From Certhia americana (lineage: Eukaryota > Chordata > Aves > Passeriformes > Certhiidae), in NCBI GenBank assembly GCA_018697195.1, contig CM031870.1, positions 2,180,079-2,244,078 of the forward strand: a stretch of DNA of 64,000 bases, in the 5' to 3' direction. A program made the translations under genes and the position numbers. Shown piece after piece: positions 14,563 to 40,796 of this stretch. The stretch's first letter is position 1. Each line of letters begins with the position of its first letter. Below the pieces are notes generated by a model, which saw nothing but the letters and a program-made list of their open reading frames with translations, ran no database searches and was not told where the DNA came from.

Positions 14563-14640
14563 TGTGTGATCACAGAACACATCAAGCTGGCAGGGACCTG
14601 TAAGAATCATCCAATCAAACTCCCAAGTGATGAAACAGGG
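14563..14640 (-). mobile_element. Possible CR1 fragment, antisense
   Basis: GTGATCACAGAACACATCAA followed by 'gcagggacctgtaagaatcatccaatc' resembles the antisense CR1 3' end. Short and degraded. Confidence 0.4.
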
Positions 14641-14808
14641 AGCTGGGGCAGGGAAGACCTGCAGCCTCCTCATTTCCAGTTTCTTCTGCGTCTTTCCCTC
14701 TGGTTGGTTTTACAGCCACCAGCTCCTTTAGAGACCTCTTCTTGTGCAGAATTTTCAGTCTCCACACATTGTTTCTGTTTGGTGTCTGGCAGTTTCCAGT
14801 TCCTTCAT
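14640..14808 (-). pseudogene. MYH16: MYH16 remnant: late rod exon (VRELE...ERRxKEL)
   Basis: After a CTCTTCAG acceptor the minus strand reads KELETARHQTE, then in another frame RLKILHKKRSLKEL, then KKLEMRRLQ. These align to VRELENELEAEQK, GMRKxERRIKEL and KKNLLRLQD of the rod. At least two frame changes and several stops. Confidence 0.7.
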
Positions 14809-16419
14809 CTGAAGAGGAGCAGAAGGACAGTTGATGTGCCATTTTGAGGGTCAGAAACAGGATGATGGCATCAACCCCAGGAATTTGAAGTTACTTGTGC
14901 TCTAGAGTTTTGTTGCAGTTGAAAAATGAAAGTCATGCTGCTGATAACAGCACACCTTCCAAATTCTCCATTGTGGGTGTAGATCAGCTGCTGAGACCAG
15001 TGGCTTGTTACTGCTGCATTCAGGCACCATAAAGATTCTGATGGATGAGTTCTGCACAGGGTGAAAAGTGCTGAAATTCCCTTGCGCTCCAGTGGGTTCA
15101 GAGTAGCCCACATGCAGCTTTTCTGCCTAGCCTGGACTTCCTTGAATTACTGCATTCCTTTTGGGACTTTTTGGTTGTTAAATGAAAATGTTCCTTTTGA
15201 GCTATTTGTGCTGAATGTGGAAGCTCAGGTGCAGGAAAGAGTTTCATAGCTGCTCTGTTGGAATAATCTTTCTAATATATTTGTACATGTTTTTCTTGCC
15301 CTGGAGTTTTATAATGGTGTTTTTCCCCCCTCCTCTTGGGGCTAACTGTTCTGCCTATTCCATCTTGACTTACAGGTCTTTTATTGCAATTTAATAGTTG
15401 TTCTTAATCTTTTCCAGGTGCACATAATGATTCTGCTCCTGACACAGATCTTTTGCCACACAGGAAGCATGTGAGGAAGGTATGAAACAGATTGAGAGCA
15501 CAGCTATTTATACAGATCATGGAAAGCTAGGATATGTAGATTTGAAATCTGTGTGTTACTTTCTGAGGAATTTTGCCATGTCTTTAATTTTTATTGTGTA
15601 TGACAGGCTGCCTTTCTGAAGGCTGGATCCAGAGTTCACTGAAATAATTGGAAGTAATCCCTGACATTTTGGAGGACTCTAGATCAGACCATAAACCAGG
15701 TGGTGGGTGCTTGTTTTAAACCACTGGACTAGTCAAAGTTGTTATCCCCACCTGTTAATAAATCAATAGTTTTGATTCTAATGGCACTTCAGGCTTTTAT
15801 TTCCACCCTCCAGTGGAGAGGAGGTGGCTGAGGGTGTGCTGTAGGTGGAGGGTGAAGACATTGTCTGAGCACGCAGTAGCAGAAAGCACAAAGGTGGCAG
15901 AAGGCTCGGTGTCAGTCTGGGAGGAAATGCTGTGCATTAAATCCCCAGCTAGCTGTGATATTTGGGAAGTGCCAGTTGTCAGCACAGTGCCAAAGGAGCA
16001 ATCTGCTCAGTGCTGGCAGCTCTGCTCCCCTCTGCCAATTCCAAATGCCACTGGCTCGCTGGAGAGGGAACCCAGCCTACTCTTTGTTGGAGGGCTGGTA
16101 GGTGTGAGGAGTGGAGTTGTGTAATAAGTGAAAGAAAGGACAAATCAAGAGGAAATGGAGGAATTCCTCAGGGTGCCATCTGTGATGCAGATTACCAGAG
16201 AGGCAGAGTGAAAGTGAATTTCTTCTTTTGTGGATTAATTCTGCCAGGCTGCAATCAGTGAGCTAACATGCATCCTGCCTTTCAGGATCATAAAAAGCAG
16301 TGCAAGTGCTGACATCTATTATTAACACTGCTTTCAAATCAGCACTGGAGAGAAATAATGGAATATATACCTGAAAGTTTCCAGCTACCACCATAAAGGG
16401 CAGAAAGGTGGGGAGGTGG

Positions 16420-16525
16420 CTTACATCAGCCACTGCTTTCTTTGCTCCCTCATCACCTCCTCAGTGCTCGCTGATGATTTCCTCATGCTCATTAATAATG
16501 TGTTGAAGGTCAGGCCCCAGCTTTC
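16420..16525 (-). pseudogene. MYH16: MYH16 remnant: rod exon (QLQxEVEEAVQE...KAKKAITD)
   Basis: Minus strand reads KLGPDLQHIINEHEEII, then SEH, TGA, GGDEGAKKAVADVSHL. This follows KxExDLxQLQxEVEEAVQE and AEEKAKKAITDAAMM, with one stop in frame. Confidence 0.75.
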
Positions 16526-17944
16526 ATTTAGTAGTAAACAAACTGATTTTAGAGGGCAGAAAGAAGTCTTAGAGACCCAAAACATCTTTCTTATCTACTC
16601 CTCTCTTCCATTCATCTGACAGAGATGATTTGTGAATGATACAATGATACACCTCTGAGGCAAAACCAGACCCTGTTGTTTACCAAGGCCTGAAGTCTGC
16701 ATCCATTTTTCTGAATTTCTGTTGGATTTGAGTTTATATACCAATATTATTTATTCCAAAGCTCTGCTGCAGTAGCAGCAGCTGGCTTTAGACCTGACTG
16801 AAGCTGTATTTGATTGCTTTCTCAACAAACATACTCTCTGCTCCGCAGTTTATGATATGGATGTGTCTTTTTATCTCGTGGAAAATATGAGCCCCACAGC
16901 TCATTTAGCGCTTACTGTTTACTGATATGAATCATTTGAGGACTGTTGTTGTTGCTGCTGTAAAAATAATAATAATAAAAATAATAAAAACACTGTATGG
17001 AAGGAGAGCTCCAAAGGCTTTAATAGAAAAATTGCATTCTAGTAACAAAGGCTGCTCTTCAGCAAAACAGCATCATGTAAATGTGCCACAGTATTCCAGA
17101 ATGCTGCACAAGTTCAGTGCTATGTGGGTTTTATATAACAAATAAGTTTTAAACCCCCAATTTAGTATGGAGAAAGCAGCTCACCTGCTTAAAATGTATC
17201 CTTTTATTATCGGTCAATTGGAGGGGAATGCATTGGTTGTATTTTTTAGCCTATTCGAATAAAGGCTACATTTATGACTCAGTTTTTATAACCAATATTC
17301 CATAATTGCAGCTGAGAAGTGCTGCTTGGATTATCAGTCCTTTCCAGAAGTTACATTCTTCTCCTTGGAAATGTTATCATGGGTGGTCTTGATGGAAAAG
17401 CACTGTAGACTCTAATGGCGAATGTTAAAGTGGATTCATAAATCTGTGCACAAACTGAAGTGGCAGGTATGTTATTTCATTCTGCAGTCTGTAATGCAAG
17501 GAGGCTTCAAATTTCACTACAATGGATCTCACTGGGGGCTACAGTCCATGGAAGGAATCCAAGCACCATGGAAACGACTGTAAAACTCTGGTTTCAATGG
17601 AGGCAGAATTTTATGCTGTCCATTTTAGGGTGGCTTTTCCCTCAGCAGTGTCTTAACTGTTCCACCAAATTTGTTAAAAGTCTCTTCATAAGCCTTGCTA
17701 GGAGTAAAGCTGGGCCAAGATGGTGCTTTTGTGAAAGTCCTGCTATGAGTGTAATATTTTAAAAAAACTGAGCTCTTCATGTTCCATAGAGTTATCAAAC
17801 ACACCTTATAGACCACTGATATTTATCCATTATTTATCTAGTCCTGCATTTCTTACCCAGAGTTAAGATTTAATGTTAAACCACACACACATAAACTCTC
17901 TGATGAGGTAGCTGTTGCATGAATAGTTCTATTTTCTCTGTGTG

Positions 17945-18130
17945 TGGACGCTGAATTCACCGTGCCTTCTCCATGACCTCTGCCTGCTCCTAGAGTTTTC
18001 CAGAGTGCTCACTGCCCTCCAGGTCAGCCTGCACTTCTTCCAGTTCTCTCTGAGGTGGGCTGAGGCAGCTCCTGCAGGTTTACAGCTCCAGAAGCTCCTC
18101 ATGCTGGTGACCATCCTCATCCTTTTGGAT
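17945..18130 (-). pseudogene. MYH16: MYH16 remnant: rod exon (LLQAELEELRA)
   Basis: Minus strand reads DEDGHQHEELLEL, a stop, then RELEEVQADLEGSEHSGKL, a stop and EQAEVMEKAR. It aligns to DDLKExxAxVER, LLQAELEELRAxxEQTERSRKLAEQEL. Three stops in the aligned frame. Confidence 0.85.
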
Positions 18131-18322
18131 CCAAAGGTCCTGAAAGCAGGTGAAGGATTAATGTAAATAATGAAAGCAGAGGATTTTTTTTTTTTTAAAA
18201 GCAAAACTTAAAACCAAGCCCCAGCTCTCTCAGCATCATGTTTGCCTCTCATTTTAGCCACACCGACTTTAAGAGAATTGTTTCTGATTGAGACTGATGT
18301 AACTGAACACAAGTTAAGTTTG

Positions 18323-18353
18323 AGTGTGTGTATGTGTGTGTGTGTGTGTGTGT
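18323..18353. repeat. (TG)n microsatellite
   Basis: About 30 bp of mostly TG dinucleotide with one TA interruption. Confidence 0.95.
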
Positions 18354-18868
18354 ATAGATGTGTATAGGGAGATGGAATCTCTGTTGTTAGTCTTTAAGTT
18401 ACTGGAATTGGATTTTTGGCAGCAGTTGTATCACTTTATTCCAACAAAGAGACAGCTTTTTACTAATTTGCTTACTTAGTTTTATTTTAGCAATGAAGAG
18501 CTGAAGGAAGCTCTCTAGTTTTACATCTCTCTTAGTTTCCAGTCCATTTCTTGGCTATCCTATTCAAACAGCAATCACAATTTCTCTTAAACACAGAACT
18601 TTTTTGGTTTAATTACATATAAATAGTTCTTGCGTTTTCAGTTTGACAAAAGCTAATAGTAATGCTTGTCTTGTATAAGATTTATTGAAACTACTGCAGA
18701 TTGAAGTTGGTGTGAGTGGGAGAACCAGGGCTTTTGAATATAAATTCTCAGTGTGTTCAAGATTTCTGTCTAAACAAGAGCACATAATCTACTGCATTGT
18801 TGCCTAAGTATAAAATAGAACTGGAGTTATTTTCCATCCAGGAGCTGCATCCAGCCTCTCCAGTTTAC

Positions 18869-19044
18869 CTGGCCATGCTGTTGCAGTTTTTTCAGGCCTG
18901 GACAAGCTGACTGTTCTTCCTACTGGCACAATCCAGCTGCATTTCCATTCTGGTCAGGTCAGTGTCCATCATTCCCAGGCAGAGATCTTCAGCACTCCCC
19001 TTCACTTCAGTCTCCAGACTCGCCTGCAGAGACTCAATTGCATG
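18869..19044 (-). pseudogene. MYH16: MYH16 remnant: rod exon (DSLQTSLDAE...MEIQL)
   Basis: Begins after a TCACCAG acceptor and runs to a GTAAAC donor. Reads AIESLQASLETEVKGSAEDL and TRMEMQLDCASRK, matching xVDSLQTSLDAETRSRNExL and NEMEIQLSHANR. One stop near the 3' end. Confidence 0.88.
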
Positions 19045-19587
19045 CTGGTGAGTGTTTCTGTGGACTCCAGTGAAGCATATGGTACAGCAGTCTGTTATCT
19101 TGAGTCTGATCCAGCCCTTGTATCAAATTATTGCCCACCAAGTAATAAAAATATAGTAGCTTTTCAAATCTGTTAAAACTGAGATACCAGGACTTTGTAC
19201 CAAGCCATTCACAAATACCTTCTTTTAGAACAGGGCTGGAGAGATTTCAAGAGGTCACCCTAAAAATGTACTGCCTAAAATCTGGATCACCTCCTGCCAA
19301 ACGAGTCCCACTCGATGTAAGACCAGACTGCATTTAACTTCCAATAACAGAGACTGTAACCTCCAGACAATCTGGTCCAAGCAGTAATTCCCCTTAATGA
19401 TTATCAAACTTTCCTAATGTCTAACTTAAAACCTCCATGCTGCAGCCTGATTATGTACATAATGTAATTATGGCCTACGTGATTATACATACAAAATCAG
19501 TCCAGTTATACTTCAAAATCCATCTGGTGGTATGTGGGCAGCAGGCACCAGGCTGGCAGGAATCTCTCACATCTGCAGCATTGATAC

Positions 19588-19720
19588 CTCCAAGGAAGAC
19601 TCTGCTTCCTCCAGTGCCACCTGCAGTTCGTCCTTCTCAATCTCCAGCCTCACAATTTGCAGCTCCTGAGTGTTCTTCCCTCCCTTCCTCAGCTGATTGA
19701 TCAGATCCTTAATTTCCTCT
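19588..19720 (-). pseudogene. MYH16: MYH16 remnant: rod exon (EEISDLTEQ...LEEAEASLE), frame still open
   Basis: Reads [31 protein letters not shown] and [11 protein letters not shown] without a stop, matching EEISDLTEQ, EGGKNVHELEKxRKQLE and LQxALEEAEASLE. The exon ends exactly at SLE before GTATCA, a known myosin exon junction. About 44 clean codons. Confidence 0.92.
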
Positions 19721-20659
19721 AGGGAAGAAAAGAGATACTGCATGTGATATGTTTATTTCAGGACTATGAACTTTACTGAGCACACCAGACAGATCCTTTG
19801 ACTGGAAATAGCATGAAATGGTTTCAGTCACTTTATGTCAGCTGCCCTTTTCTTTCATTGCTAAATATTATCCTGGATTTCTGAATGAGCCCTGCTAGCT
19901 GCATGTGTTCACAGAGGTGGAAGAATGAAGCGCGCTAAATAAAGAGAATTTTTTTCCCAGTTTTTATCCAGCCTTCCCCTCTCCCTCTTTCAGATGGTTG
20001 CTTTCACAAAATGGGAACAGGACACCACATCATCTCCCTGCAACACAGAGGGGCTCTCTGCCAGCTGATGGAGGCTGGAGTAAAGGGCTGGGGGAAGAGC
20101 CCAGGAAATGTTGGGTGTGTGCCAGAGTGTCCATCACTGTTTCCTCTTGGCCAAAAGGACAGCAGACTGTAGCATCTTCTAAATGTTTACAGTGTCATCT
20201 TCCAGCCTCCTGTAAGAGATCAATTTTTGTAATTTACAGAAGTGTAAAACAGAAAAACTGGGGTGGGGGGTGGGGAAACTGGTATCACTGAACAACCAGT
20301 AGGGAGGAGGGATGCAAAGAGGGACATTGAGGGGAGTCTGACTGGCTTGCTCTGAACTGATTGCTGGAGATGCTGAATCCTCTCCACGGAGATTTAAGGG
20401 AATATCTTCTTCTCAGGGCAAAGCTGGATGTTGTTAAGCCCCCCCAGATGAATTGCTCAGAATTAGAGGATGCTGGTAGCCAGAACTGGCACTGCAGCCT
20501 CTCTTTTGTGGCACCAAATTAATGTCCTCAGAGACTTGAAAGCACTGCTAGGAATAAGGGAAGTGGAATTGGTGCTGGAAGGCACCCCAAGAGAGCATTC
20601 AGTAGAAATCAAGGGGCTTATGATGTGCAAAATTTTTGTACATCAAACCAGTACTTAAC

Positions 20660-20859
20660 CTTAAGGGCCTTGTTCTCTTTCTTCATAGAATCCAGGTGTT
20701 CCAAGGATTCTTCTCAGGCAGCCTTAAGCTCTACATTTGCAGTTGTGTACATTCCTTCTGTGAATTTACTTCACCCTGCAGCTCTTTGCCCTTTTTTTTA
20801 CCATTCCTTTTACCAAAGGCTCTGTGCTTCTTGTCCAGAGCAGCACAAGCAGCATTGGC
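20660..20859 (-). pseudogene. MYH16: MYH16 remnant: rod exon (NAACAALDKKQ...NLQ)
   Basis: Opens after TTTTTCCAG with ANAACAALDKKHRAFGK, the myosin SNAACAALDKKQRNFDK motif. A frame change follows, then NVELKAA, TGA, EESLEHLDSMKKENKALK, matching [28 protein letters not shown]. Ends at a GTTAAG donor. One indel and one stop. Confidence 0.93.
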
Positions 20860-22099
20860 CTGGAAAAATAAAACCAAGCATTCACTGGACACAGGTTTTC
20901 TTCACACTTCACTTCTCTGCGTGTCCTGCCAGCCAGTCACTGTTAAATTGGCTGCCATTCTAAAGGCTGGCAGCATTTCTCTTGGTCACTCTGAATGGAT
21001 GATTAAAATGTTTATGAGGCTGTCTTTCCTCACCATTAGGAATTTAACAAGATCACCCAGTTCCCATCAGTGTGATAGTCGTCCTTGCTCCTGTGGTTAT
21101 AATGATGCTGCTGTGGAGCAAATGTTTTCCACTTCAGATGTTCCTCGTGCAGATGTGCTGTTGGTAATTGCCTGGGTTGATCAGTGTGACTTTTTCTATT
21201 TCAAAGCAGATTCAGTTACAAACAAGTTGTTATTCAAGACTGTTTGAGACTGTTTAACTGCTTGTCATGAAGGGAAAGAATAAAGGTACATTTTTCTTTC
21301 CTAGGAGCTTTTAATCACAAATATTCTACATATCCTTATGATCTATACATGTGTTCAGATACCATGGTGACAAGCACACCACAGGAACCATAGAATAAAG
21401 AACTGCTTCATTAAAGATAGGGATGGGGAAACAGATTTTTTCAGCCCAGTAATGCAAAGCTGTATGTGGGATTTTCAGCTCTTGGGATCTGTTCTAAAGC
21501 CAACTGCAGGCATTGGCAGGTACCCAAGGACTTCAGTGGATTTGGAGCAGCCTTTGTGCCTATTTTAAGTAACATTTTTATTCAACTATCCCACAGTTGC
21601 ACTACTATTCATGCTCTTGCACTAACATGAGCAAGAGTAGAAATACTAATTTAGTGAAGGAGCTGGTGTTTAAACTGTGTTGTTTAGGTCTGCTTTGAGT
21701 TTGGTAGTTAATAACCAGTGGCCAACCCACCAGTACTGCAACACTGAAAAGTTCAAAGCAGGATATCATTATCCTTTAAAGGAAGATGAATACCTTGACT
21801 TGCAGTAAAGGAGGGCTTTTGCTTTAGCTGTACTCTTGTTTCTGGAAGTCTGCTAATGAGCTTATGAGGAGCATGCTGTGTGCTCCCAGGAATTAGCTGT
21901 GGCTCTCATCTGGGTTTTCTCTTGATGTGAGAAGTCTTAGCCTTGTTTCTCATAGCCATACAGATTGCTTGACGTTTAATAGAGAGACTTTAAGAAATAA
22001 GGGACTGGATCAAAGCTGACCTGAGTTAACAGAAAGACTCCCAGAGCCTCTGGTACCAGTTTTTAGATCTTGGTGGTCATGCTGAGTCCCCTCCTGGGG

Positions 22100-22245
22100 A
22101 GCTGGATTTCTGGCCTTCTCAAGTCAACAGTGAGTTTCTCCACTTCATTCAGAAGCCTCTGCTTAATTTTCTCCATGTTGGCAGCCCATGCTTGGACTGA
22201 TCCCACTGTCTCCTCTGCTTCCAGAGCCTCACAGCCAACTTTGTA
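22100..22245 (-). pseudogene. MYH16: MYH16 remnant: rod exon (YETDAIQ...KTKQRLQNEVEDL)
   Basis: After TTTTCTTCAG reads YKVGCEALEAEETVGSVQA, with a deletion, then NMEKIKQRLLNEVEKLTVDL. The second part is a close match to LEKTKxRLQNEVEDLxVD. The expected middle (TEELEEAKKKLAQR) is missing. Confidence 0.88.
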
Positions 22246-22721
22246 CTGAAGAAAAGATGGTAGAAATATCCTGGTGAGTAGTTCATGGATTTGAAGAGAG
22301 GTGGTATCAGCAGCCTTTGCCTACTGAACACCATCACCGTTTTCACCAGGGAAAAGATGGTAACTTGGCAGCAGTCTCAGAAAACAGATTGTAAAATCTT
22401 TGGTGTTTGCTTTAGCCTTAGGAAATTATAATGGCTTTTGTAGGGCTAATGGAAGAGTAAAGTTCTGTTGAAATTAAAAAAGGCTACCCAAATTCAAGCT
22501 TTAATCAGAAAGGTTTGTTTTCTGTTGTCAGTGTACCAATGTTAGGTCTCAATAGTCTCTGTTATTGCAAGTATTATTTTCCTTCTCTTGGCTGGAGCCC
22601 TTTGCTTTCTCTCTCTCTTACCAAATTACATCCCAACAGATCACATCCATAAGCTGTGACTCAGCAGCCAAACTAAATAATGAGACTGCCCTAAGCCCCA
22701 GACTCCCTGAAAGCTGAGTGC

Positions 22722-22915
22722 TCACTTGGTTTCCTGCAGCTTTTGCTTCTGTCAATGCCATCAATCCTCTGTTTGGTCCCCCAGTGACTTCAGTGTTCAG
22801 TTTAGAGACCTGAACTGCAGTTCAGCTTTGCTTTTCTCCTCCTCCTCCAGCTGCTTTTTCTTCAGGTCCAAATCCTGCTCGGTGTTGTCTGGGCCCCCAC
22901 AACAGCCGTGCAGGA
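22722..22915 (-). pseudogene. MYH16: MYH16 remnant: rod exon (SARHDCDLLREQYEEE)
   Basis: Nucleotides TCCTGCACGGCTGTTGTGG mirror the start of the SARHDCDL exon. Then LKKKQLEEEEKSKAELQ matches LREQYEEExEAKAELQ, and SKLNTEV matches SKANSEV. Several indels and stops. Confidence 0.8.
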
Positions 22916-23529: not shown

Positions 23530-23658
23530 TTTGTTACTCTGAAGAGGACAATGTTCAAAGCAGCAGGCAGTGCATGACCCGTGACAGCAGCAGCCTCTGC
23601 AGGCAGCTGGTGCTCCCCAGCACCTTGGATTCCTCATCCAGCTGCCTCCTCAAGTCAT
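23530..23658 (-). pseudogene. MYH16: MYH16 remnant: rod exon (DLKRQLEEExKAKNALAHALQ)
   Basis: After CACACAG reads DLRRQLDEESKVLGST and, in a shifted frame, GHALPAALN, following DLKRQLEEExKAKNALAHALQSA. The following exon of the protein is at 22.9 kb, as expected. Confidence 0.82.
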
Positions 23659-23929
23659 CTGTGTGCAAGGTAAGAGAAATCTTTAGTGGACAGTCTGGTT
23701 AAGCCTGCTCTGAGCTTCCTGGAGCTCCCAACTCAGCTGTCTGGTTTTGGCTGTGCAACAACTGTATAAAGAAGCAGGAGAGGAACTAATTCAATGTATC
23801 TGGGGTGAGTGAGAAAGACTGGGCAGATCTGCAAGAGGAGACAGAGCAGGGCTGCCAGATCTGGATGAAATGTAGGGGAAGAGAAGGATCTAAGGGAGGT
23901 AACATTGCACAAAGCTGTCAAGAATCTAC

Positions 23930-24041
23930 CTTGGAGCCTGACTGCTTTATTTGCAGCTTGGCATTCCTCCATCACAGCCAGCTGGGCCTTGGCCTCAGCC
24001 AGGTTATCTTCCAGCCGGTGAACATGAGCATGGGAATTCAG
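23930..24041 (-). pseudogene. MYH16: MYH16 remnant: rod exon (LEDQxxEAxxK), frame open
   Basis: Between a CTTCCAG acceptor and a GTAGAT donor reads VHRLEDNLAEAKAQLAVM and EECQAANKAVRLQ with no stop. It follows CRTLEDQxSExxxK and xxTQRAKLQ of the rod. About 37 clean codons. Confidence 0.78.
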
Positions 24042-24384
24042 CTGGAAGAGAGAGGTCAGTCATATGATGCTGAGTAAGGCTTCAAGAGCCAAGATATCCT
24101 CCCTCCCTGGCAAACTCAGTTAATTCCAGTTGGTAATTGCACTGGGATGACTGTAGTAGCCTGGGGGAGTGCAGTGTCCTGACCTTTGTGAGGGAGATGC
24201 CTGCTCTATCAGCCAGGATGGGCAGTGTCCAGCATCAGCTGCCAGCAGCTGCTTCCTGGCATCAGCAGCTCCCACTGGAGAGCTGGATTCTGCTTTGCAC
24301 TCATGGCTACACCTGTGGCTGCATTGGTTTGGTGAGGAATTCCCTTCTGGTCTCTCCCCCTGGATTTCTGCAGAGATTCCATGC

Positions 24385-24480
24385 TTACATTCAGCTTACC
24401 CATTTCTGCTTTCATGAGCTACTTGTCCATCTCCAGCTTTGCTTTCACTCATCTCCATGAGCTCTGCTATCCCAGCCATG
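24385..24480 (-). pseudogene. MYH16: MYH16 remnant: rod exon (SVAELGEQ...KLEKEKSE)
   Basis: AGIAELMEMSE matches DSVAELGEQID; then in another frame KLEMDK, TAG, LMKAEMGKLNVSMESL matches KLEKEKSExKxEIDDLxSNMES. One stop and one shift. Confidence 0.72.
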
Positions 24481-24721
24481 GCAACTGTGTTCTTCCTGTG
24501 GCCCTGCCCTACTGGAACTGACCTTACTGCTTTCTGTGCCACTGGCCAAGCTCCTCTACCTGTTTTCCCCCTTGCAAGGTGTCTGACAACATGGACCTAT
24601 CTCCTGACGTGGATGAGAATTAATCTGATCACATTTCAAAAGTGAACCGAAATGGAAATGTTCCTTATTATTGATGCTGTCAATTTGTATTAGACATTAG
24701 AACATGTTCAGAGCATTCTAT

Positions 24722-26470: not shown

Positions 26471-26704
26471 GCCTGCCTAAATTACTGAACTTTACTTGTG
26501 TTTGTCATTGGGTTAATGCTGAAGAGATCTGAAATGACTGTGGATTTTCCCAGTGAATTTATGGTCAAGGGTCTTTTCAGCTGTAGCTGATGCTGTCAGA
26601 GCTGTGACGTAGCACAACTGCACCCAGTAGGATTTTGTACCATCCACTCCAATTGACACATAAAACCATGAAAATTCCTTAGAACATCTTCCAAGTTTCA
26701 CTCA

Positions 26705-26815
26705 TTTCATCTCATTGAGGTTGGGTGTTGTCATTTTGAGGTCACACTCTGCTTTAGGATAAGCCTTTTCCATCTTGCCATGGATTTTATTTTCTTCTTC
26801 AGAGTTGTCCTCCAG
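26705..26815 (-). pseudogene. MYH16: MYH16 remnant: rod exon (LEGSLEQEKK...), frame open
   Basis: Directly after an ACTAG acceptor reads LEDNSEEENKIHG, KMEKAYPKAECDLKM and TTPNLNE with no stop. It matches LEGSLEQEKKxR and xLERAKRKxExDLKLTQExxxxL. Joins in phase to the exon ending at 27,117. Confidence 0.9.
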
Positions 26816-26865
26816 CTAGTTGAAGAAAGGGAAATAAGCATGAAAAAAGACTTTGTAACAAACAT

Positions 26866-27018
26866 AAAATCATAGGATCATGGAATGATTGGGTTGGAAG
26901 GGACTTAAAGACCATCCCATTCAACTTCCCTGCCGTGGGCAGGGACACCTTCCACTATCCCAGGTTGCTCCAAGCACCATCCAAGCTGGCCTTGAACATT
27001 CCAGGGATGGGGCAGCAC
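26866..27018 (-). mobile_element. CR1 LINE 3' fragment, antisense, in MYH16 fossil intron
   Basis: Starts 'aatcataggatcatggaatg' and runs through 'cgtgggcagggacaccttcc' to 'ccagggatggggcagc'. It sits in the 300-bp intron between two myosin rod remnants. Confidence 0.92.
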
Positions 27019-27116
27019 AGCAAATATATAGATAATGTTTATCATAAGGGCCCAACATGCAGAAACCAGACTAAAGAGGGTTATCTAAAATAGAGACTGT
27101 GACAACTGCACCTCAC

Positions 27117-27210
27117 CTCAGGTATCCGAGTGGCAGGCTGGCTGCTGTTCTTGGGCAGGTGGTTCACCTTGTTCTCCTTACCTTGCAGTTTTCCAAGAAG
27201 GGAGAGGCCA
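27117..27210 (-). pseudogene. MYH16: MYH16 remnant: rod exon (LQxEEDKVNxLxKxxxKL)
   Basis: Reads KLQGKENKVNHLPKNSSQ then PATRIPE, ending exactly at GAG before a canonical GTGAGG donor. It matches DLQxEEDKVNxLxKxxxKL. The reading frame runs across the junction into the exon at 26,815. Confidence 0.85.
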
Positions 27211-28354
27211 AGACTAGTGCACAGAGTTGGGTGAGAAGTTAAACCCTGCCCTGGCAGCAGACTGAAAACCCAAAGAATTCATCCGAGGTGCTTCTGGAGT
27301 GCAGCCTGAGCTCTGTGTGTGGTTTGCAATGGCCCACAGGAGCTCGGTCCAGCACTGGCTCTTCCCAAAGCATCCTGCTCACCCTCAGAATTCACACAGC
27401 TCTTTTGGGCAGTGGCACAAGTTGGCAACACTTCAGTGTGCTGCCATGAGTTAATACCCAGAAAAGCACAGCCCCTTCCTGTTTGTGCAGTATGCTGGAG
27501 TCTCACAGCATTGAACCAAGTAGACAATGGGGGTTTTTTACCCTTTCCCCAGACCAGGAGAATGAGAATGGGAGAGAATAAAGAAAAATGAACAGTTATT
27601 TCTGCCTGCTGAACTCCCTGCAAAGCCCTCTTCTCCTTTTGGCATTTAGTGACTGAGTCATTCCAAGAAGAGAGATCTAAGTTTGAACCCTGTGGTCTAA
27701 TGCCTGCAGGCAGGAAAAAGTTTTTGTGGATCACACAAACCGTTAGCAGCAGCAGGACAAAATGTCACTGGAAACTTGTGCTTCTTTGGAAGGAATCTGA
27801 GATTCAGTTAATAAATTCTGAGGCATATGAGGCATCTGTGAGTTTAACATCCTGTGGAAGTTAACACTGACTTCAGAAGAAGCAGCAGACAACCACATGG
27901 CTGCTCTGGTGCAGATTTAAGACTTTTCCAATTACATTAAATAAAAAACAATTCAGGTGCAGGAGAGGGAGAAGCATTCCCCAAGGCTGGATGGAAGGAG
28001 TTACATGACTGCAGAGGGAGACATATTATAAGCAGAGGCCTACCAACATCATTATGTAAAAGTGGGTCTAATTAATAAAGAATGTCAAGGAAATACAATG
28101 ACTTTATGTAGAGAGATCCCTAAAAATTCCTGTGAAATGACTATTGCTATAAGGTGGGAGGGTGAAGTGAATAATTAAATCCATCCCAGGTTGTATGAGA
28201 TGCTGAAAGACAATATAAGAAACCGTGGGGGAGATGAGCTGAGTAAATCTGAGAATCCCAAAAGGTGCTCTGAGTGGAAGAGCTGTAATAGTTGGCTGGG
28301 TTCATTCCTTTGAAGAATAAGGCAGAAAAAACCTCTTGTTATGCTTCATACCCA

Positions 28355-28535
28355 CTTCTTCTCAGTTTTAGCCAGGGTATTCTCCAGCCCTTCCAAATGC
28401 CATTGCAAATGGCTGAGCTAGTCCTCCAGTATCCTCTTGCTGGCCCTCCTGTCATCCCCTTCACATCCAGGAGCTGCCTCAGGGGCCCATCCTTCATTTC
28501 TTCATTTGGGCCAGGCATTCCTCAGCATCCAGCAC
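28355..28535 (-). pseudogene. MYH16: MYH16 remnant: S2 exon (DAEERCDQLIK...LTLAKVEK)
   Basis: LDAEECLAQMKK matches DAEERCDQLIKNK. In a later frame DDRRASKRILED, TAG, LSHLQWHLEGLENTLAKTEK matches [34 protein letters not shown]. At least one indel and one stop. Confidence 0.85.
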
Positions 28536-29131
28536 GTTCCCTTGTTCCTAATGAAGGGATGGGGATCCAGTGTTCATCCTATGAAAGGCTGCTAATAAGA
28601 TTTCTTCAACATGCCTATGTTGCAGTTGATCTCTGTGACTCAGGCCGCAGCTTCTTAAAAGTTAAGCATCAAAAAATCTGTTTGTACACACACAGGTTCC
28701 TAAAGAAGAGTTTGCACTTCAAAAAGATGCCACCCCAACTTGCTGTGGCTCATACTGAATATCATTGGTGGACCAGGGGCAGAACTTGGGACTTGTGACA
28801 GCAGCTCCTTTGCTTTAACCAGGAGGCTTTTCAGTCTCCTTTGTTATCCAAGGACTTTATTTGAGTTGCAGTCAGGCTGCCTGTGAGGCTCATGCATCAT
28901 CCCCATGTGCTCTTTATTCATCCCATGTTCTGAAAAGGAGCCTCTTATGAGTCACCTGAGGGAGCTGATGCCCTGCCTCGATGAATCCTGAGCCTTTAAC
29001 CATTCCCTATGGATAACAGCCTGCAGTTCGATGGGGAGGTCATCCCTCTCCTAGCTCAGGGTGGCTTGTCAGCACCTCTGATCTTTTGTGAATGCTCTGA
29101 GCTCCCAAGCCTTTGACATGATGCTTCTCAC

Positions 29132-29191
29132 CTCCCATTCCTTCAGTTACATTTCCTCCTCCTGCTGGGCCACATTCAGCAGCAGCTTCAC
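29132..29191 (-). pseudogene. MYH16: MYH16 remnant: head-rod junction exon (IKPLLK)
   Basis: A 60-bp exon with intact AG (AATTCCAG) and GT (GTGAGA) reads VKLLLNVAQQEEEM, TAA, LKEWE. This is the KPLL start of the S2 rod just after the conserved head-rod proline. The single stop is at 29,147-29,149. Confidence 0.88.
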
Positions 29192-30228
29192 CTGGAATTA
29201 AGGAGTTCAAGCAATGAGGTTCCCAAAATAAGCCATTTCTATTATAATGGTTCCTGAAAGCCCTGAGGTGGTCATTTTGTTATCAGATCCTAGGGGGTTT
29301 TTCATACCAGTGGGAGGCCTGGTGTTTCCTGAAATGCCTGTTTCGTGCAGGGTTTCATATCTCTGGTGTGAGTAATACAGCTCCTAGAAAAGGTTGTTAT
29401 GGAGCACAGGAGCAGATCTGTGTGCCAGCACAGAAGTCAGGACTGTATGCCAAATTCTGAACTGATATAAATGCAGAATGATTCTTATCATGATCTAGAT
29501 TCACAACAGTCCAAATGGGACCAGAATCCTTTGAAAGCTTTTACTTTCTAAGGCTGTGGAAGTTCATTTGGCTCACACTGGAGCTGGGAAGGTGTGTTAC
29601 CCAGATAAAAAGGCAGATTTTGGTTCAACCATAGGTGGAAAATTGGCTTTAAAATTTTTTTGTTTCACTTAAACTTGTATTTCTTGGTCAGCACTTTCTT
29701 TCCCCTCTCACCAGAAACTCAATTGATTTGTCCATCCTGGGCCTAAGTGAAGAGATACTGAGCTGGAACTGCCCCTTCATGATGGCTGTGGTCCTGCTTA
29801 AGAGAAGTGAACCAAGCTTCTTTGTTTCATCTTTTAAATGTTAATGAATAGTGAAATCTTATATTCCCATGCTCATATCCTCACTCCTCCTCTCTGTGCT
29901 GGTTTGAGAAGTGGGAAATTCAGGCCTTGAGTTTTGAAGACATTCTCTTTCCACTCCCTAGAGGCAGCGGGCATAGACTCAGATTTCAGGATTTTCTCCA
30001 TTTACTAACTTTTCTGGCATTGATTTGGAAAGAAATTATTCAGGCCCCTTGCCCTATCAATAATTAACTAGAAAGTCACTGACTTTCTCAGTGTCTCTAA
30101 CTGAACATGGCTGTTATTTTTTCTCCCAGCCCTTATCTTTCCTGCCCAGACATCCCAAGTTTCTCAGTGCCTGTAATTGCCACTGTTTAATTCTGCAGAA
30201 CAGGACAACCTCAGGATTTTTTCCTCAC

Positions 30229-30304
30229 CCTAATGTTTGATTTCTCCCAGAAAAGCATCTGCAGAAACTTGTGGCCATTCCTCTGAATTGCCATCAGGCC
30301 AAGC
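30229..30304 (-). pseudogene. MYH16: MYH16 remnant: neck/IQ exon
   Basis: After TTGCCCCAG reads LGLMAIQRNGHKFLQM and LFW, aligning to DALLVIQWNIRAFMGVKNW. The Ile-Gln pair and the Phe and Trp are kept. Ends at GTGAGG. This would bind the light chain in an intact myosin. Confidence 0.78.
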
Positions 30305-31024
30305 CTGGGGCAAGCAGAACAAGTGGGGCTTAGAAACAACTGCAGGGGTAGAGGTTTTGTCCTTGATGAAAACAAAAGACACCTTGTGCTGTCCTGTAAC
30401 AGGAAATGCACTAAATAGTTTTAGTAGTAATGAAAAATAATAGTTGTAATCTTGCAGCTGTTGGCTTTAAAGTAATATTGAGGCAGTGATCTCCATCCAT
30501 AAGTTGAAATCTAAGGCTAGAGTAGGTTGGAGGAGTGATGACAATTGTGTAATTATTATAAAAGTTGGGAAATGCAGATTTTAGGTTCTTGGAAAGAACA
30601 GAATGCTCCCTTCTGCGTGGCTGTTACAATAGCTACTTTCATTATGTTATGACAAAAACATATGTGCAAAATTAATGATGCATGCTGCTAATATTAGATG
30701 ACTACAACAACCTCTCTACATTTCACTTTCCAGTCTTAAATTGGATAAATGATCAGTTAGAAGGATTTTTGCCTGACTAAGGAATAGTAAAGAGCAAGTG
30801 AGATTTATCACATAGCTGAAGGTGCACTTCATTTGCATTTTATTAACTGAGCTGCCTGATTAAAAATCAGTTTCAGGAGCGTGTGTAAGAGAGAGAATAT
30901 TATATGCATGAGGAAGTGGGTTGCTGTAGAAACTCAAACTCTGCAGTTCTATCTACCCCAAAGGCATCCTGAGTCATAACTGCCATCAGTTTAGTCAGCT
31001 CAGTTTGGTCAGAGTGAACAGTAC

Positions 31025-31145
31025 CCTTTAATATCCAATTCTGCTCTCCTTTTCCTCCAGGTCAGGAGAGCCAAGCAGCAACTCTTGTGCCTTCTTATTG
31101 TCCACAAACCCTGGAGGGATCAAGCTGGGATTCAGTTTTTGGTAG
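31025..31145 (-). pseudogene. MYH16: MYH16 remnant: converter exon (RYxxLNPxAIPxG...GHTK)
   Basis: After CATGTTAG reads YQKLNPSLIPPGFVDNKK, then AQELLLGSPDLEEKESRIGY and a stop. It matches RYxILNPxAIPxGxFIDSxKxxEKLLxSxDxDxxxYxxGHTK. Very clear family match. Confidence 0.93.
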
Positions 31146-31329
31146 CTAACATGGAAAGACAGGTATAATGATAGAAAAATTCAGCAGCAGCAATGCAGAA
31201 TTCTCATCACTGCCTAAGATCTTCTCTGGTGTATCTTCCCAGCCCCACGGGTACTGAAATATTGCTGTAAGGAAGCCTGTGGATATTCCTACCTGTAAAT
31301 GTTCTTGAAAGAAGCAAAAGCAATGGAAG

Positions 31330-31854: not shown

Positions 31855-31993
31855 GCCCCAGCTTGTGCAGAAAGCACTGTGTGCTTTGCCTGAGGGTTGC
31901 TGTACCAGACTGTTTGAATCCATTTGGAGCAATGCAGTGGGTGAAATGCAGGGATGTGCTCTGCAAAGCAACTCTCAGTTAGTCCAGCTGCTC
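31855..31993 (-). pseudogene. MYH16: MYH16 remnant: lower 50-kDa/SH region exon (ENLNKLMTxLR...HFVRCIxPN)
   Basis: After GTCTCATTCCAG reads EQLD, TAA, LRVALQSTSLHFTHCIAPNG then FKQSG. It aligns to ENLNKLMTNLRSTxPHFVRCIIPNExKxxG. Stop at 31,979-31,981. The Leu-His-x-Leu that follows is only vaguely kept. Confidence 0.93.
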
Positions 31994-32484
31994 CTGGAAT
32001 GAGACAAAGAAGAGTGGAGTGAATGAACTAACAGGAGTTACCAAGGCTGGAGAGAGAAAACCTTCTGTTTTATAAAGGCATTTGCATTTCCCAGCTGGAA
32101 TCATAGCCCCATATCGACTGGCATTAGCTTTGGATACACAGAAAAGTAACACAAGCCTTCCCCTGTAATGTATTTCCTATCTTCATTTGTGGCTTTCAAG
32201 GCAAAATACTAACAGGATTCTTTGGAGCTTTCCTGTCCTGTTTCTAGCACTGCTGAGAGTTACTGGAAGTGCTGTGACAGCAGCCTCAGAAAGAAACATC
32301 ACATCCTCCAGGTGCTGGACTTCATCTCAAGACTCAGTCTCCCCTTTTATGCTGGTGCTGCTTTATCAGTTTAGCAAAGCCCAGGAAGGAATTCCACAAG
32401 CAGGGAGCAGACATAAGATGCAAACCTGTCCATTTGATAGTTCAAAATCTGAAAAGCAGTTTCCCCGTCTCTCTCATTCACCTC

Positions 32485-34633: not shown

Positions 34634-34680
<47 letters not shown>

Positions 34681-34683
34681 ACT

Positions 34684-34720
<37 letters not shown>
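34634..34720. repeat. (CA)n microsatellite
   Basis: About 87 bp of CA dinucleotides interrupted by TCACACACTCTCAC. Frames over it (Thr-His or Cys-Val runs) are repeat artefacts. Confidence 0.98.
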
Positions 34721-34722
<2 letters not shown>

Positions 34723-35019: not shown

Positions 35020-35262
35020 GAGTCTGTTTTTAGCAGCTTTTTCAATCTCAGTATGAACATTGGATTCAATCTCAGTGAACTGGCTGAGCTGGTAGCACAC
35101 TGGCTTTGTCCTGGTTTGTGTCACCAAGTGTGAGATCTCAACCCAGGTCCATGTTGTCCACCTCTGCCTGCTTCTTCTTGCCTTCTGCTTGAATTTCTCC
35201 ATGGCATCCCAAGTCAGAAGTCTCTTCTGGATCAGAGCCCAGGACATCAAAGGACTGAAGGG
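35020..35262 (-). pseudogene. MYH16: MYH16 remnant: upper 50-kDa exon(s) (FDVLGFxxEEK...KFKQKxREEQAE)
   Basis: QSFDVLGSDPEETSDL matches xAFDVLGFxxEEK. Then, across frame changes, AMEKFKQKARR and KKKQAEVDNMD match GNMKFKQKQREEQAExDGTE, and DKASVLPAQ may match DKxAYLMGL. Several stops follow. Confidence 0.85.
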
Positions 35263-38200
35263 ACACAGACCCCCACAAGGGAATACTTAATCTGCACCAT
35301 AAGCTGGAAGTCAGGCCATGGTATCAAACATCTAAAATAGTTTTCCATCCCACTGAGATTTGAGCAGCCAGGTCCCATCAGACCAGCATTGTGCTTCGCT
35401 CTCCCATCCTGCCCGGAGCAGGGAGAGCACAGCTCCAAGCACACCAGAGAATTTTGCAGTGTGCTACTTGTGAGCCATGATTTGGGACTGCCTGTCTTTG
35501 TGGCCTATGAAAATCATATCTGCTTTGTACAAAAGGCTTGTTTGCAATGTATAAATCCTGGGAGCTGTAAAATACCAACAGCTGCTGGAAAGGGCGTTGG
35601 AAGTTCAGCAGCTGGAAACTGTTTGATCTCTCTGTAGCTCAAGTCCTGCTTATAATAATAGTCTCAGAAGCCAGCAGATATTCCCTATAAGCTCTGCTCA
35701 GCAACAGATACTCTTCAAAATGATATTAAAAAGGAAAATATGTGTCAAAACTAGACAAAGGGTCAAGTCTTCTTCTCACAAAAGCTGCTCCTTGAGATTA
35801 CACATGTATGTGAAATGAGCAGGTTTTAACCTGTGGTCTCTGCCTCAGCTTTCAGATCTGTCAGTTTTCAGGCTTCAAACAAACCCTGTTACAGCTCATC
35901 TGAAGTCCTGCAAACCTCAGGCCATTGAATGTTAACCAGACACTCCTACATCACACTCATTTGCTCTGGAGCAGATATTTTATCTTCAGGCTTCTGCTCA
36001 GAGACAATTGAACAAATCTTCAGGCTGTCCCAGCTGCTCCTCCGTTGCTTATTTATCCTCAGGTTGAAGAAACTGAATTTTATTCCTCCAGGAAGCTCAG
36101 ACCAGGGGGAGAGCATCCTGTTTGCTGTATTTCCACTTTCACTGATGTTCCTCCAGGCTTCCAGTGAGAAGTGGCTCTTCCCCACCATCTGTGTTTTTTG
36201 TTGTGATCACCTTGATGCACCCAGTGCTAAAAATTAGGATTGAGCACAAGCAGAAGTTTCTGCAGCAAGAGGCAGACCATGAGGTAACTACACAATTGCC
36301 ATCAGTCCAAACAAGGCATAACAAGAAGGTTTTGGACTGGAGGCTGAAGGATCTTCTAGGTTTCAATACATGAGCACATTTTGAGTGTTTCACAAAAAAA
36401 GAGCCCTTAGTAGGACGACTTGTTCAGGCCGCCCAGGAGATTTTGACATAGCAGCCACATTGAAGTAAGTGGGATTGAACACCCAAACCTTTTCAAGAGT
36501 ATTGAAAGGCTTGTCCTGGCTGTCTTCCCTGTCCTGAGGAGATTCAAGCAATTAGCATGAAGCTGCTCAACACTTCAGTTTGAAAATTATCATTTTTACC
36601 TTCATGGCAGTCCTGCCAGATCGAGGGGCACCTCACCATGCATTGATCAAGATAAGGGAAGACAGCTTTCCTTTCTCACTCTGGCCTGCCTAAGGAAAAG
36701 TCACTTGCAATCCTCTTCTTCCTGGATAATCAGTAACAACCCCCCCACTGCAGAGAACCTGTTTCAATCTCTGACCAAGCACAGATCTGGTGAGTACATT
36801 TTTTATCCTAGAAACAGGTGATTGAGCAGGGATGTGAGCATTAAAAGCAGTGAATAACACACACAAAGCACTGTACCAGTAAGTTCAAGGAAGAAATGTT
36901 AATATCTCTTGGTTCATTCCTGAGAAATGACATGTGACTTCTCCAGACAGGGAACATAGAGGGGAACATATCCAGATATATCCAGCAGCCAGAGATTGAA
37001 AAGTCACAGCCCTATGGATGTCAGTGACAATTTTGCTTTTGATATCAGTGAAAGCAGTGTTTCACCAATATCCTTTGGAAGTCCTGTGAGTGCAGCAAGA
37101 ACCACAGCATCCTTCAGTGATGCTCCCAGAATATGCCTTTAACTTTTACAATGTTCCCACTGACACAAGTTTTAGTAAAGATATTTTAGCAGCAAGTGAA
37201 AAAGAGGCAGAAAAGGACATTGCTTGTCCAATTATGTCATCGTTGGGTTCAGGAACAGCTTTCCAGAATAACTCATCCTGCTTCTGAGCATCCTCTGAAT
37301 TGCCAGTGCATGGTTTGTAAGGCTGTCCTGTGAATTGTGTCCTTACTGCCCTGTGTTTCAGTGAAGAGCTCTGGAGAAGGTGGTTTGTACCCTATAATCA
37401 CTCGGTCCATGCCTTCTGCCAAGCTCTAACACAGTTTGGCTCTTGGTCTCCACAAAGCCCATCCTCCTCTAGACCTCACTGCATCAATTCACTCCAAAAT
37501 CCCCAAAGGGATACCAAATCACCAGGAGTTCCTGCCTGGGCATTTTCACTGCTCCCTCTCAGCTGGAGTCTTCTCTCCATGTAAGTCTGCTGTGAGCTGC
37601 ATCATGTGAGTTCTTCTGGTGAGTTTAGGTTCACTCAATCACCTTTGTTGCCAATTTTGGTTAGACCAAGTGACTTTGAGGAGGACTCACAGTCCCTTCT
37701 GCCCACAGAGCTCTAGCCAAGGTGTAAGAGGACCTTGGCCAGTGCTACTGCCTGCCCAGCAAAGGTCTAGCCACACCAGGCAGGAGGCTGAAACCTGCCA
37801 GGAAACAACCTCAACTTGCCTTGGCCTTGAACTGTCCACAGAGGCAAATCCAACATATGGTTGTTGGGTGTGATGCAAATCTGGGATGAGTTGAAAGTCG
37901 GAGGGATGCAGACAATCCCACATTAAAGAATGACTGGTCCATATGTTTCCTCTCTCCTTTTTCTGTGTGTTGAAGGGCATTAGTCAGGAAACGTGGCGGG
38001 GTCTTTTCACCTTGACAGCTGAGCTTTGTGGCTCTCAATTTAACGTTGGATGCACGTGTGCAAGCACAGAACAATGCACCTTCCCTGCAGAGATATTTTT
38101 AGGGTCTTGGTTGCAAGACAATTACAGTGTTGTGCTGATGAGTGTTAGTAATGGTTGCAATATAATCATGGAGTGAAAAGTGTACAGCTTTGGGGGAGGC

Positions 38201-38455
38201 ATCGTGTCCTTTTTGTGTCACAGAGTCTCACAAGCAACTAAAGAAAGAGGAAATAAATTTGTCATCATCTAAAACATGTAACTTCGCTGTAGAAGAAGAG
38301 ACAGAGTGTGGTTTCATTTACAGCAGTGGAGATCCCTCCAGTTCACAGAATTAATTTCAGATTTGCTCACGTCTGATTTAATCAAAACAGGGTCCATTCA
38401 ACACAAGAAAAAAATCCAAAGTGAAGTTAATATGGAGAATTATCTACTTACTTAC

Positions 38456-38519
38456 AACTCCCAGTGTTAGCCCCAGCCAGCCTCCCTGTGCCACCACAGT
38501 GAATTCAGATAAATTTGCC
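38456..38519 (-). pseudogene. MYH16: MYH16 remnant: GKFIRIHFGxTGKLAxADIE exon, splice sites intact
   Basis: A 64-bp exon between acceptor TTTTCTCATCCAG and donor GTAAGT. Reads GKFI, TGA, IHCGGTGRLAGANTGS, matching GKFIRIHFGxTGKLAxADIE. The arginine codon has become TGA at 38,505-38,507. Exon ends fall exactly at known myosin junctions. Confidence 0.94.
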
Positions 38520-39184
38520 CTGGATGAGAAAATAAAAGATGAGTCTGTTAATCAAGATTGCAATATCTGTAGGAAAACAGAAAGTAGCTGAGAGGCTCTG
38601 AGCGTTCATCAGGGACAGACAGCGTTGCCTATAGGGGCAAATTTGCAAGTCAGTGAGAGGAAATTTAATCTTTTCAAAGATCAGATCTATAAAAAACCTC
38701 TTTCTTCTTGGATTCTGTATTAGAGCTTAAAGAAATTCTCCTTTCTCTGCAGCATATGGCAGAAGTATGTAGCACACAGAAACAGGAGTGAGGCTTCAGT
38801 TGAAACTCCCAATGTCTTACATGTTCACCAAGAACTACGAAACTAAAAATAAACTGGAGATAATCTGCAAAATAATCTGAAAAAATCTGTAAAATTAAAA
38901 ATAATCTGCATTTTGAAGCTTTGCAGCAGTGATTAGTTGAAAGGGCATTGATTTGAAGTGTTCTTCAAAGACATATAAAAAATTGATATCTAAAAATAGG
39001 AAGGCAAAATGATAGTGACAAGCTCAGTTCAAGAAAATAGGAAGCAATAATGCTCAGTGGGAAGTATTAGTAAATATAAATTAATTTTACTGCTTGAGGA
39101 GCATTTTAAGGTAGTTTTGGGGGGTTCTGAGGGAAGATTTTTGTATGATCTACAGTGACCTACCAGTGAAGAGCTGCTACTTGC

Positions 39185-39276
39185 AAATGGAAGGAATTGT
39201 TCTTCCTCCTATTTTTAGCATTCTTAAGGGTCTCCAGAAGAGAATTCATCTGGATGACTTGATCTTCCAGGGATTC
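39185..39276 (-). pseudogene. MYH16: MYH16 remnant: LEDQIIQANPVLEAFGNAK exon
   Basis: After TTTTTGCAG reads SLEDQVIQMNSLLETLKNAK then NRRKNNSFH, with no stop, matching TLEDQIIQANPxLEAFGNAKTxRNDNSSRF. The GN of the motif is KN. The original donor appears as GCAAGT at 39,184. Confidence 0.94.
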
Positions 39277-40009
39277 CTGCAAAAACCAGCAGGATGCTCA
39301 ATGCAGATGCCTTGGGCTTTCAGCATGACCTCTCACCACCCAAACCAACTCGGGGAATAGACTTTCTGTCAGTCAGCTCCCAGAAAAGCTGAATTACCGC
39401 TGTGAGCAGGAATGCCATTCAGGTTCAGCCCTGCCAGAGGCTCTCCACAGGGATCCAGCCGTGTGGATTTGGGGCAGGCAGGAGTCTGGCTAATCCCAGC
39501 TCCAAGAAGGAACGCCAGATGCGAAGTGCACTGCAGGGTTTAGTACATCAGTGTTGTAGGGAAGAGGGTTTGGGGTATTCCAGGATTGAGACACCCACAG
39601 GGAATGGTCGGGCTGGGATCTGCAGGCAGAAAGCTGGGAAAGAGAAATGAAATGAGGTTTGTTGCTTGGAGTAGGAGGAAGGTTATTCCAAGGGTAGAGG
39701 GCAGCATAAGACAGGCTAGGAATGCATGTGGGATCGGGAGAGCCTGGGGGGTGAAGTTGTGGAGGAGGAAACAGGCGCGCAGGGACAAGCTGGGACTTGA
39801 CAATCCAGAGGTCTGGCGGTGAGGAAGCTGGAAGGAGGAATAGGAAACCACCGAAGGAATCCCACAAGGCTTGAATAACAGGATTTCTGCTGCATGGCCA
39901 AATGTAGCTGCTATTCCTGTCTTTAAATTCAGAATTGCTTTACTGACCCCCACAGCAGAGTCTGAGGGGAGATGAAAAAGAAGAACAAAGAGGAAAGAAA
40001 AAAAAGGAA

Positions 40010-40148
40010 ATGGAGAGTGGAGAGAGGAGAGGAGAGGAGAGGAGAGGAGAGGAGAGGAGAGGAGAGGAGAGGAGAGGAGAGGAGAGGAGAGGAGAGGAGA
40101 GGGAGAGGAGAGGGAGAGGAGAGGGAGAGGAGAGGGAGAGGAGAGGAG
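40010..40148 (+). repeat. (GGAGA)n purine-rich tandem repeat
   Basis: Perfect GGAGA pentamers from about 40,021 grade into an 11-mer GGGAGAGGAGA. The strand is pure purine. It lies next to the decayed ATP-site exon. Confidence 0.97.
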
Positions 40149-40164
40149 CCATGAGCCTGGTGGA

Positions 40165-40262
40165 ATTTTTTCTTGTTGATGCTGAACAACTTTACTCATT
40201 GCTATCATGACCAAAAAAGACCAGGTCTCCCTCCCTGATTATTGATGCTTATGTCTCCTTCA
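40165..40262 (-). pseudogene. MYH16: MYH16 remnant: probable P-loop (ATP-binding) exon
   Basis: Reads GDISINNQGGRPGLFW, then after a shift AMSKVVQH, at the place of [26 protein letters not shown]. The Ser-Ile and one Gly of the loop align; the GKT is gone. Similarity is modest, and location between the initiator and LEDQ exons supports it. Confidence 0.5.
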
Positions 40263-40649
40263 TTATTTGGATAACATGCTCTCCACAATATTTTACCCAG
40301 ATAAAGCACTTTTTACTATGCTTTGGTTGTGCAGGTGGCAGGAAATAAAAGTGCTGGGAAATCCCACCTGGCTGAGGATCCCTGAGGCTGCTCTACAACA
40401 CTGTTCTCTCAGGAATCTCTGTGCTCTCTGCAAACACTGTGATTATTCCTCCCACTGCTATTTATTCCCATTTCCAGACCACCTGGGAGCCCCCAGAGCT
40501 CTGTGTGAGTGTGAATTCATTGCAGCCACAGATCAAGATTTCCCCCACCCTGTTTATGAATGGGCAAAAAAGAAATGCAGAGAATTAATTTGCAGAGAGG
40601 GGAAAGGAACGCAGAGAACTCAAACATTCTGGTGTTTTGCCATTTGCTT

Positions 40650-40796
40650 TTAACAAGGAAACCCTTTCTCTTCACCCAGAAGGAAAAATCTGTCCCAGGG
40701 CTTGTTCATGGCCTCAGGTTTCTCTTTCTCAGGCAGAGCCAGGAGCTGCATGGGGTCAGTGTCATCCACGCCCTCTTCCTTATAACCATCAGTCAT
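40650..40796 (-). pseudogene. MYH16: MYH16 remnant: first coding exon with start codon
   Basis: Opens MTDGYKEEGVDDTDPMQLLA then LPEKEKPEAMNKPWDRFFLL, an open frame of 48 codons ending at TAA near 40,650. It corresponds to the myosin N-terminus (xYLRKSEKERxEAQxxPFDxK). The long acidic lead and the PEKEKxEAMNKPWD form differ from the skeletal/cardiac isoforms. ATG at 40,796. Confidence 0.88.

Follow-up and report, generated by a model that had tools for sequence, protein, structure and literature searches.

Does the interval between ARPC1A and KPNA7 in Certhia americana still hold a working jaw-muscle myosin gene, and if not, when was that gene lost? We analyzed a window of 64,000 nucleotides (contig CM031870.1, positions 2,180,079 to 2,244,078) in which a first-pass annotation, made from the letters alone, had proposed a fossil gene for the masticatory myosin MYH16. 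The minus strand from 40796 to 13995 is a decayed, intron-bearing sarcomeric myosin gene, MYH16, extending from the start codon to the C-terminal tail, and the locus makes no motor today. Our preferred reading, held with a probability of about 0.94, is a unitary pseudogene that still occupies its ancestral site, flanked by KPNA7 and ARPC1A, and that was left by one loss followed by neutral decay.

An intron-bearing MYH16 remnant

Alligator MYH16, compared with the 64-kb window by tblastn (E ≤ 1e-3), yields 19 high-scoring segment pairs (HSPs). All 19 fall on the minus strand and follow the protein from N to C terminus without a break, running from residue 1 at 40796 to residue 1924 at 14043. 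This crocodilian comparison, suggested in the first-pass annotation, upholds the strand and order of the roughly 27 fragments reported there at 14640–40796. The end at 40796 is exact, being the first base of the ATG start codon, whereas the alignment continues about 650 bases further at the 3′ end, closing near 13995 in the MYH16 tail, and the gene model comprises 33 segments, some of them weak, rather than 27. MYH16 fragments from six other birds, used as queries, produce 86 HSPs, every one on the minus strand and within the MYH16 interval, with a single break in order in the Aegotheles query.

Splice-aware alignment was carried out with a purpose-written aligner, first used to model five intact sarcomeric myosin genes of the same genome (C2a, C2b, FSK, MYH7B and MYH15, the last two being our own labels); these are five of nine models, the other four (F2, F4, F7 and X10) being dropped for frameshifts, N runs or non-sarcomeric character. 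Penalties were tightened because a loose alignment scored random sequence at 889–969 with many spurious exons. The mean profile of the five paralogs scores 1100 on the minus strand against 262 on the plus strand, 200–215 for four shuffles and 282 for the reversed sequence. The window therefore holds the decayed remains of a sarcomeric myosin with its parts in collinear order, and the shuffled and reversed controls rule out chance coiled-coil matches. A profile of ten MYH16s, with extra weight on alligator and turtle, scores 2364 on the minus strand, with controls of 430 (plus strand), 366–390 (three shuffles) and 459 (reversed); 864 of the 1596 residues aligned in it (54%) are identical to alligator. 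The difference between 2364 and 1100 bears out the proposed identity as MYH16 over any better alignment to another MYH gene.

A search of 5.8 billion proteins with the readable pieces of the remnant (29 of 37 segments, linked by X wherever a stop or frameshift intervenes) returned 3156 matches. Alligator sinensis myosin-16 ranks first (787 bits), followed by Komodo dragon, sand lizard, bat, snapping turtle and lynx. All 120 listed matches resemble alligator MYH16 more closely than they do any one of the five bird paralogs; most are named MYH16, superfast or masticatory myosin, some are named myosin-7 or myosin-4 or are nameless, and no bird is named among these best 120 of 3156. A maximum-likelihood tree (456 columns, 22 rows) places the window inside MYH16 and inside birds with support of 100/100 each; the joining of bird MYH16 with alligator and turtle receives 88/87 only.

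The MYH16 model contains 29 stops and 50 frameshifts, with 18 of the stops falling in stretches found independently by tblastn (15 in alligator HSPs, three more in bird HSPs), and the motor is largely gone or unreadable at about residues 50–210 and 335–640. Fifteen of the 32 model junctions lie within two residues of introns common to at least three of the five paralogs, against 3.1 expected. Consensus splice letters, which the aligner favors, occur at 24 of the 32, and clear splice sites stand beside the exons at 39.2, 38.5, 20.8 and 19.7 kb. The stops, frameshifts, missing exons and splice sites at myosin exon junctions described in the first-pass annotation are thereby confirmed, as is its picture of an intron-bearing gene decayed in place rather than a processed copy. 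Three well-flanked junctions, at residues 831, 1000 and 1430, are absent from the paralogs; they may be in keeping with the five introns that human MYH16 has in addition to those of other sarcomeric MYH genes (excerpt of PMC6402096). The remnant lies between an importin alpha gene (KPNA7 by position) and ARPC1A, both intact, as in the human 7q order SMURF1, KPNA7, MYH16, ARPC1A (passages of PMC4263743 and PMC3038855), matching the place and orientation of mammalian MYH16 as originally proposed.

These data leave little room for a different origin. Since all sarcomeric myosins are alike, the fragments also match genes of the cardiac, fast skeletal, MYH7B and MYH15 types, and a dead duplicate of one of these might have come to lie here by chance. 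Such an origin is refuted by the tree, and the profile scores and the paralogs themselves speak against it: the paralogs are only 55–62% identical to alligator MYH16 and for that reason are not MYH16, and junctions 831, 1000 and 1430 are separated by 15, 29 and 17 residues, respectively, from the closest intron of any of them. We regard such a duplicate as highly improbable. The chance that the gene arrived by retrocopying, as a processed copy, or by some other insertion is close to nil, since its exons are scattered across 27 kb, have splice sites where introns are conserved, and occupy the place that MYH16 holds in the human order; the introns rule out a processed copy, and no point in favor of one was found. 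An intact gene made to look broken by assembly or sequencing error would have a precedent in the fast-myosin cluster on contig C17 of the same assembly, whose models carry 33–80 frameshifts, but ARPC1A and importin alpha read cleanly on either side, whole exons are missing, and the window gene retains just 54% identity to alligator MYH16, versus 91% in turtle. Divergence excludes this explanation, whose probability we consider vanishingly small.

Lesions probably shared among birds and the estimated age of the loss

A search with full-length alligator MYH16 shows no bird among its 120 listed matches, where clusters at 90% identity could hide one. With 750 rod residues as the query and partial proteins admitted, six birds appear among the 120 listed of 473 matches found: the ibis Theristicus caerulescens, razorbill Alca torda, flamingo Phoenicopterus ruber, seriema Cariama cristata, owlet-nightjar Aegotheles albertisi and cuckoo-roller Leptosomus discolor, all of which we take to belong to Neoaves. 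Each NCBI model is named 'LOW QUALITY PROTEIN: uncharacterized protein MYH16' and is, by sequence and tree, the same decayed gene as that of the window; the models differ in being machine names on frame-corrected proteins, with no statement of gene death or of shared lesions. The NCBI pipeline has already put the MYH16 name on fragments in some birds; what is new is that these six models fit the 7-base deletion seen in the window.

That deletion (site B) lies in the rod exon at 20660–20862, where ten non-avian MYH16s read QK(E/D)CR(I/M/T)Y. The window DNA at this site, GAATGTACACAACTG, is seven bases short relative to that protein, changing the frame. Past the site, the ibis model continues in the wrong frame of the window (both ECTQL...SLRLP), the flamingo and cuckoo-roller models resume at YTTEN and the seriema model at TTEN, while the razorbill and owlet-nightjar models, already in a wrong frame upstream, come in at MYTTEN and MYMTEN. 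All seven birds, the window as DNA and the others as corrected proteins, thus appear to fit one 7-base frameshift deletion, which occurs in none of 136 other proteins (0/136), three of these having some other gap. In-frame deletions C and E are present in 7/7 birds, and deletion A, clear in six, can be read in flamingo as well; non-avian gaps at sites A, C and E number 7/135, 0/135 and 1/136. Site D, not preserved in the window, and site F, aligned plainly in razorbill, seriema and the window only, were not counted. The search for shared lesions that the first-pass annotation had called for is thus answered in part only, with one frameshift deletion that appears common to seven bird lineages. 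Just upstream of HNEL/HGEF (window 17965–17990), the flamingo model also shares the shifted frame of the window, so that another frameshift may be common to the two; the ibis model apparently departs from this.

A single 7-base deletion that fits the window and all six birds, and that none of 136 other proteins shows, points to one probable death of MYH16, no later than the common ancestor of these Neoaves. Silencing, perhaps on the stem of living birds, would have come when the jaw closers turned to other sarcomeric myosins; neutral decay by point changes, small indels and exon loss would have followed, running about twice as fast in the window lineage as in the other six.

The pace of decay was read from 304 columns invariant in ten non-avian vertebrates, at which 35 changes are common to birds and later changes of their own amount to 10–16% in the six other birds and 25% in the window. 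The stem-to-crown ratio is 0.82 (bootstrap 0.53–1.14), falling to 0.62–0.69 without CpG-prone residues, which change fast, and standing at 0.68 or 0.89 under other column filters. Crown Neoaves, at 67 million years ago (Mya), calibrates the clock. Dropping ancestral R, R+A or R+A+P+S+T moves the age from 122 Mya to 113, 110 and 109 Mya, respectively, and the other filters give 113 and 127 Mya. The loss is thus dated roughly to 109–127 Mya, with bootstrap extremes of 92–143 Mya, assuming even rates and with an upward bias, as the NCBI models favor preserved stretches and so lower the crown distances. The maximum-likelihood branch lengths (bird stem 0.15, alligator 0.037) agree in kind.

This estimate is near that for tooth loss in birds, put as early as c. 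116 Ma by the genomic evidence of Meredith 2014 (as quoted in a passage of PMC5034473). We lean slightly toward a single death of MYH16 on the stem of all living birds, ~110–125 million years ago, alongside the tooth genes. On this reading, the motor of a strong bite would have been abandoned along with the teeth before crown birds diversified. The 7-base deletion is then predicted in chicken and ostrich, and jaw closing in toothed stem birds, Ichthyornis among them, may by that time have run on other myosins.

Several points weigh against a single in-place loss. The other six birds are known from machine-corrected proteins and not from DNA, and fitting razorbill and owlet-nightjar to deletion B needs a further frame change upstream. 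Eight of the 32 junctions have no consensus splice letters, and some segments of the model are weak and possibly spurious, for example at 39.3–39.5, 37.7, 34.2–35.3 and 25.8 kb. A second, intact MYH16 copy may exist elsewhere in the genome, though more probably no working copy does. Separate losses in several bird lineages, with the likeness of lesions due to chance or to automatic correction by NCBI, would accommodate the finding that the other birds, whose proteins are machine-corrected, fail to show most of the stops and frameshifts seen in the window, and mammals have lost MYH16 on many occasions (excerpt of PMC12906968). Such independent deaths are nevertheless improbable: site B fits in 7/7 birds, with the ibis model in the very wrong frame of the window, two or three further deletions are held in common (C and E, and A with flamingo by reading), and the changes common to birds at 35 of the 304 invariant sites mark relaxed selection before the birds parted. 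Residual function, whether through a protein reduced to the rod or through a non-coding RNA, draws on the better preservation of the rod exons relative to the motor exons, yet stops and frameshifts run through the rod too, and the invariant sites have gone on changing since the ancestor of the seven, by 25% in the window lineage and 10–16% in the six others; we hold it to be very improbable.

Jaw muscle, beak and comparable gene losses

Masticatory myosin is a high-force motor confined to jaw closers and reported from sharks, crocodiles, turtles and many mammals, and birds go without mention in the excerpted parts of these accounts (PMC11050549, PMC12906968). MYL5 is given as the masticatory light-chain gene in PMC11050549. 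The loss in birds had been tentatively linked in the first-pass annotation to a beaked lineage. The snapping turtle, which is beaked, keeps a full-length MYH16, so a beak alone cannot explain the loss; the putative link is weakened, and the turtle offers a natural contrast of beak versus bite.

The closest parallel is the human MYH16 pseudogene, the same gene dead in place between the same neighbors. The human gene is otherwise whole, with one two-base frameshift in exon 18 dated to 2.4 or 5.3 Mya (part of PMC6402096), whereas the window gene has tens of lesions and missing exons and is far older. Pangolin, armadillo, anteater and echidna also resemble birds in having unitary MYH16 pseudogenes with clade-shared lesions, dated by relaxed selection; these losses are tied to ant-eating, that of pangolin being placed at 63.7 Mya (sections of PMC12906968), while the bird loss lies in another class and is probably older. 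Low-quality MYH16 models are also found among the listed matches for Dugong dugon, Trichechus inunguis and Megaptera novaeangliae, a hint of further mammalian losses; the two sirenians have in common a gap of one residue and altered residues close to site B. The enamel and tooth pseudogenes of birds (extract of PMC3562159) are likewise mouth-related, dead and marked by frameshifts common across orders, but they are other genes of another tissue, serving teeth and not jaw muscle.

No account of MYH16 loss in birds was found in the open literature searched, subscription journals and preprints lying outside it, and one may be printed elsewhere. Loss of this gene has so far been discussed for human jaws and mammalian diets. 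If birds lost it only once and in the distant past, the phenomenon would reach across an entire class and provide a datable molecular mark of changed jaw mechanics in the lineage leading to birds, to be set next to tooth loss, which is already dated. One short deletion makes it directly testable in any bird genome.

Exon inventory and surroundings of the locus

All exons of the remnant lie on the minus strand. The first coding exon (40659–40796) encodes an MYH16-type N-terminus corresponding to alligator residues 1–49 (tblastn 55% identity, E 4e-8). Motor exons follow at 39181–39276 (residues about 213–243, with acceptor and donor sites), 38456–38519 (residues 244–264, stop at 38505–38507) and 31859–31999 (residues 648–690, stop at 31979), with a motor fragment at 36160–36271 (residues about 292–332) carrying a stop and a frameshift. 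The converter region exon (31016–31165, residues 712–761) has a stop at 31028. The neck exon (30223–30306, residues about 803–831) ends at the 831|832 junction that is absent from the five paralogs, and a neck/rod exon with three stops occupies 29018–29194 (residues 831–889).

Next comes a rod exon at 28352–28547 (residues 890–965) bearing two stops and two frameshifts, followed by three segments at 26686–27703 (residues 966–1072), exons at 23624–24555 (residues about 1122–1320) containing the in-frame deletion A common to other birds, and exons at 22114–22915 (residues 1321–1430). The exon of site B, described above, covers residues 1431–1502. The shared in-frame deletions C and E lie in the exons at 19549–19719 (residues 1503–1561) and 18869–19064 (residues 1581–1647). 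Further exons are found at 17938–18142 (residues 1647–1717, a stop and frameshifts), 16413–16544 (residues 1718–1761, two stops) and 15295–15474 (residues 1756–1814, three stops), and the last rod and tail exons extend over 13995–14808 (residues 1815–1943).

On one side of the remnant, ARPC1A (1043–6489, minus strand; best PDB match ARPC1A) has intact exons for residues 1–167, the remainder of the gene lying beyond the window; three weak model pieces past residue 167, two with a frameshift, are therefore taken as spurious. On the other side, an importin alpha gene (53383–59052, plus strand) is composed of segments without stop or frameshift, reads cleanly over most of its length and is confirmed as importin alpha by PDB matches; position and divergence assign it to KPNA7 rather than KPNA2. 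Weak end pieces of this model fall at 46000–46044 and 56374–56406.

The fast skeletal cluster on contig C17 (~2.03–4.28 Mb) contains N runs beside its frameshifts and looks like a case of assembly trouble in tandem copies, not gene death. Within the window, both-strand matches near 3.3, 5.9, 11.2, 26.9, 44.7, 45.7, 47.8 and 48.2 kb, to one intron stretch of a fast myosin gene and one stretch near the MYH15 3′ end, most likely represent an interspersed repeat. The right edge of the window (62600–64000) consists of a long degenerate C-rich repeat array with units near CCATTC and a strong GC skew.

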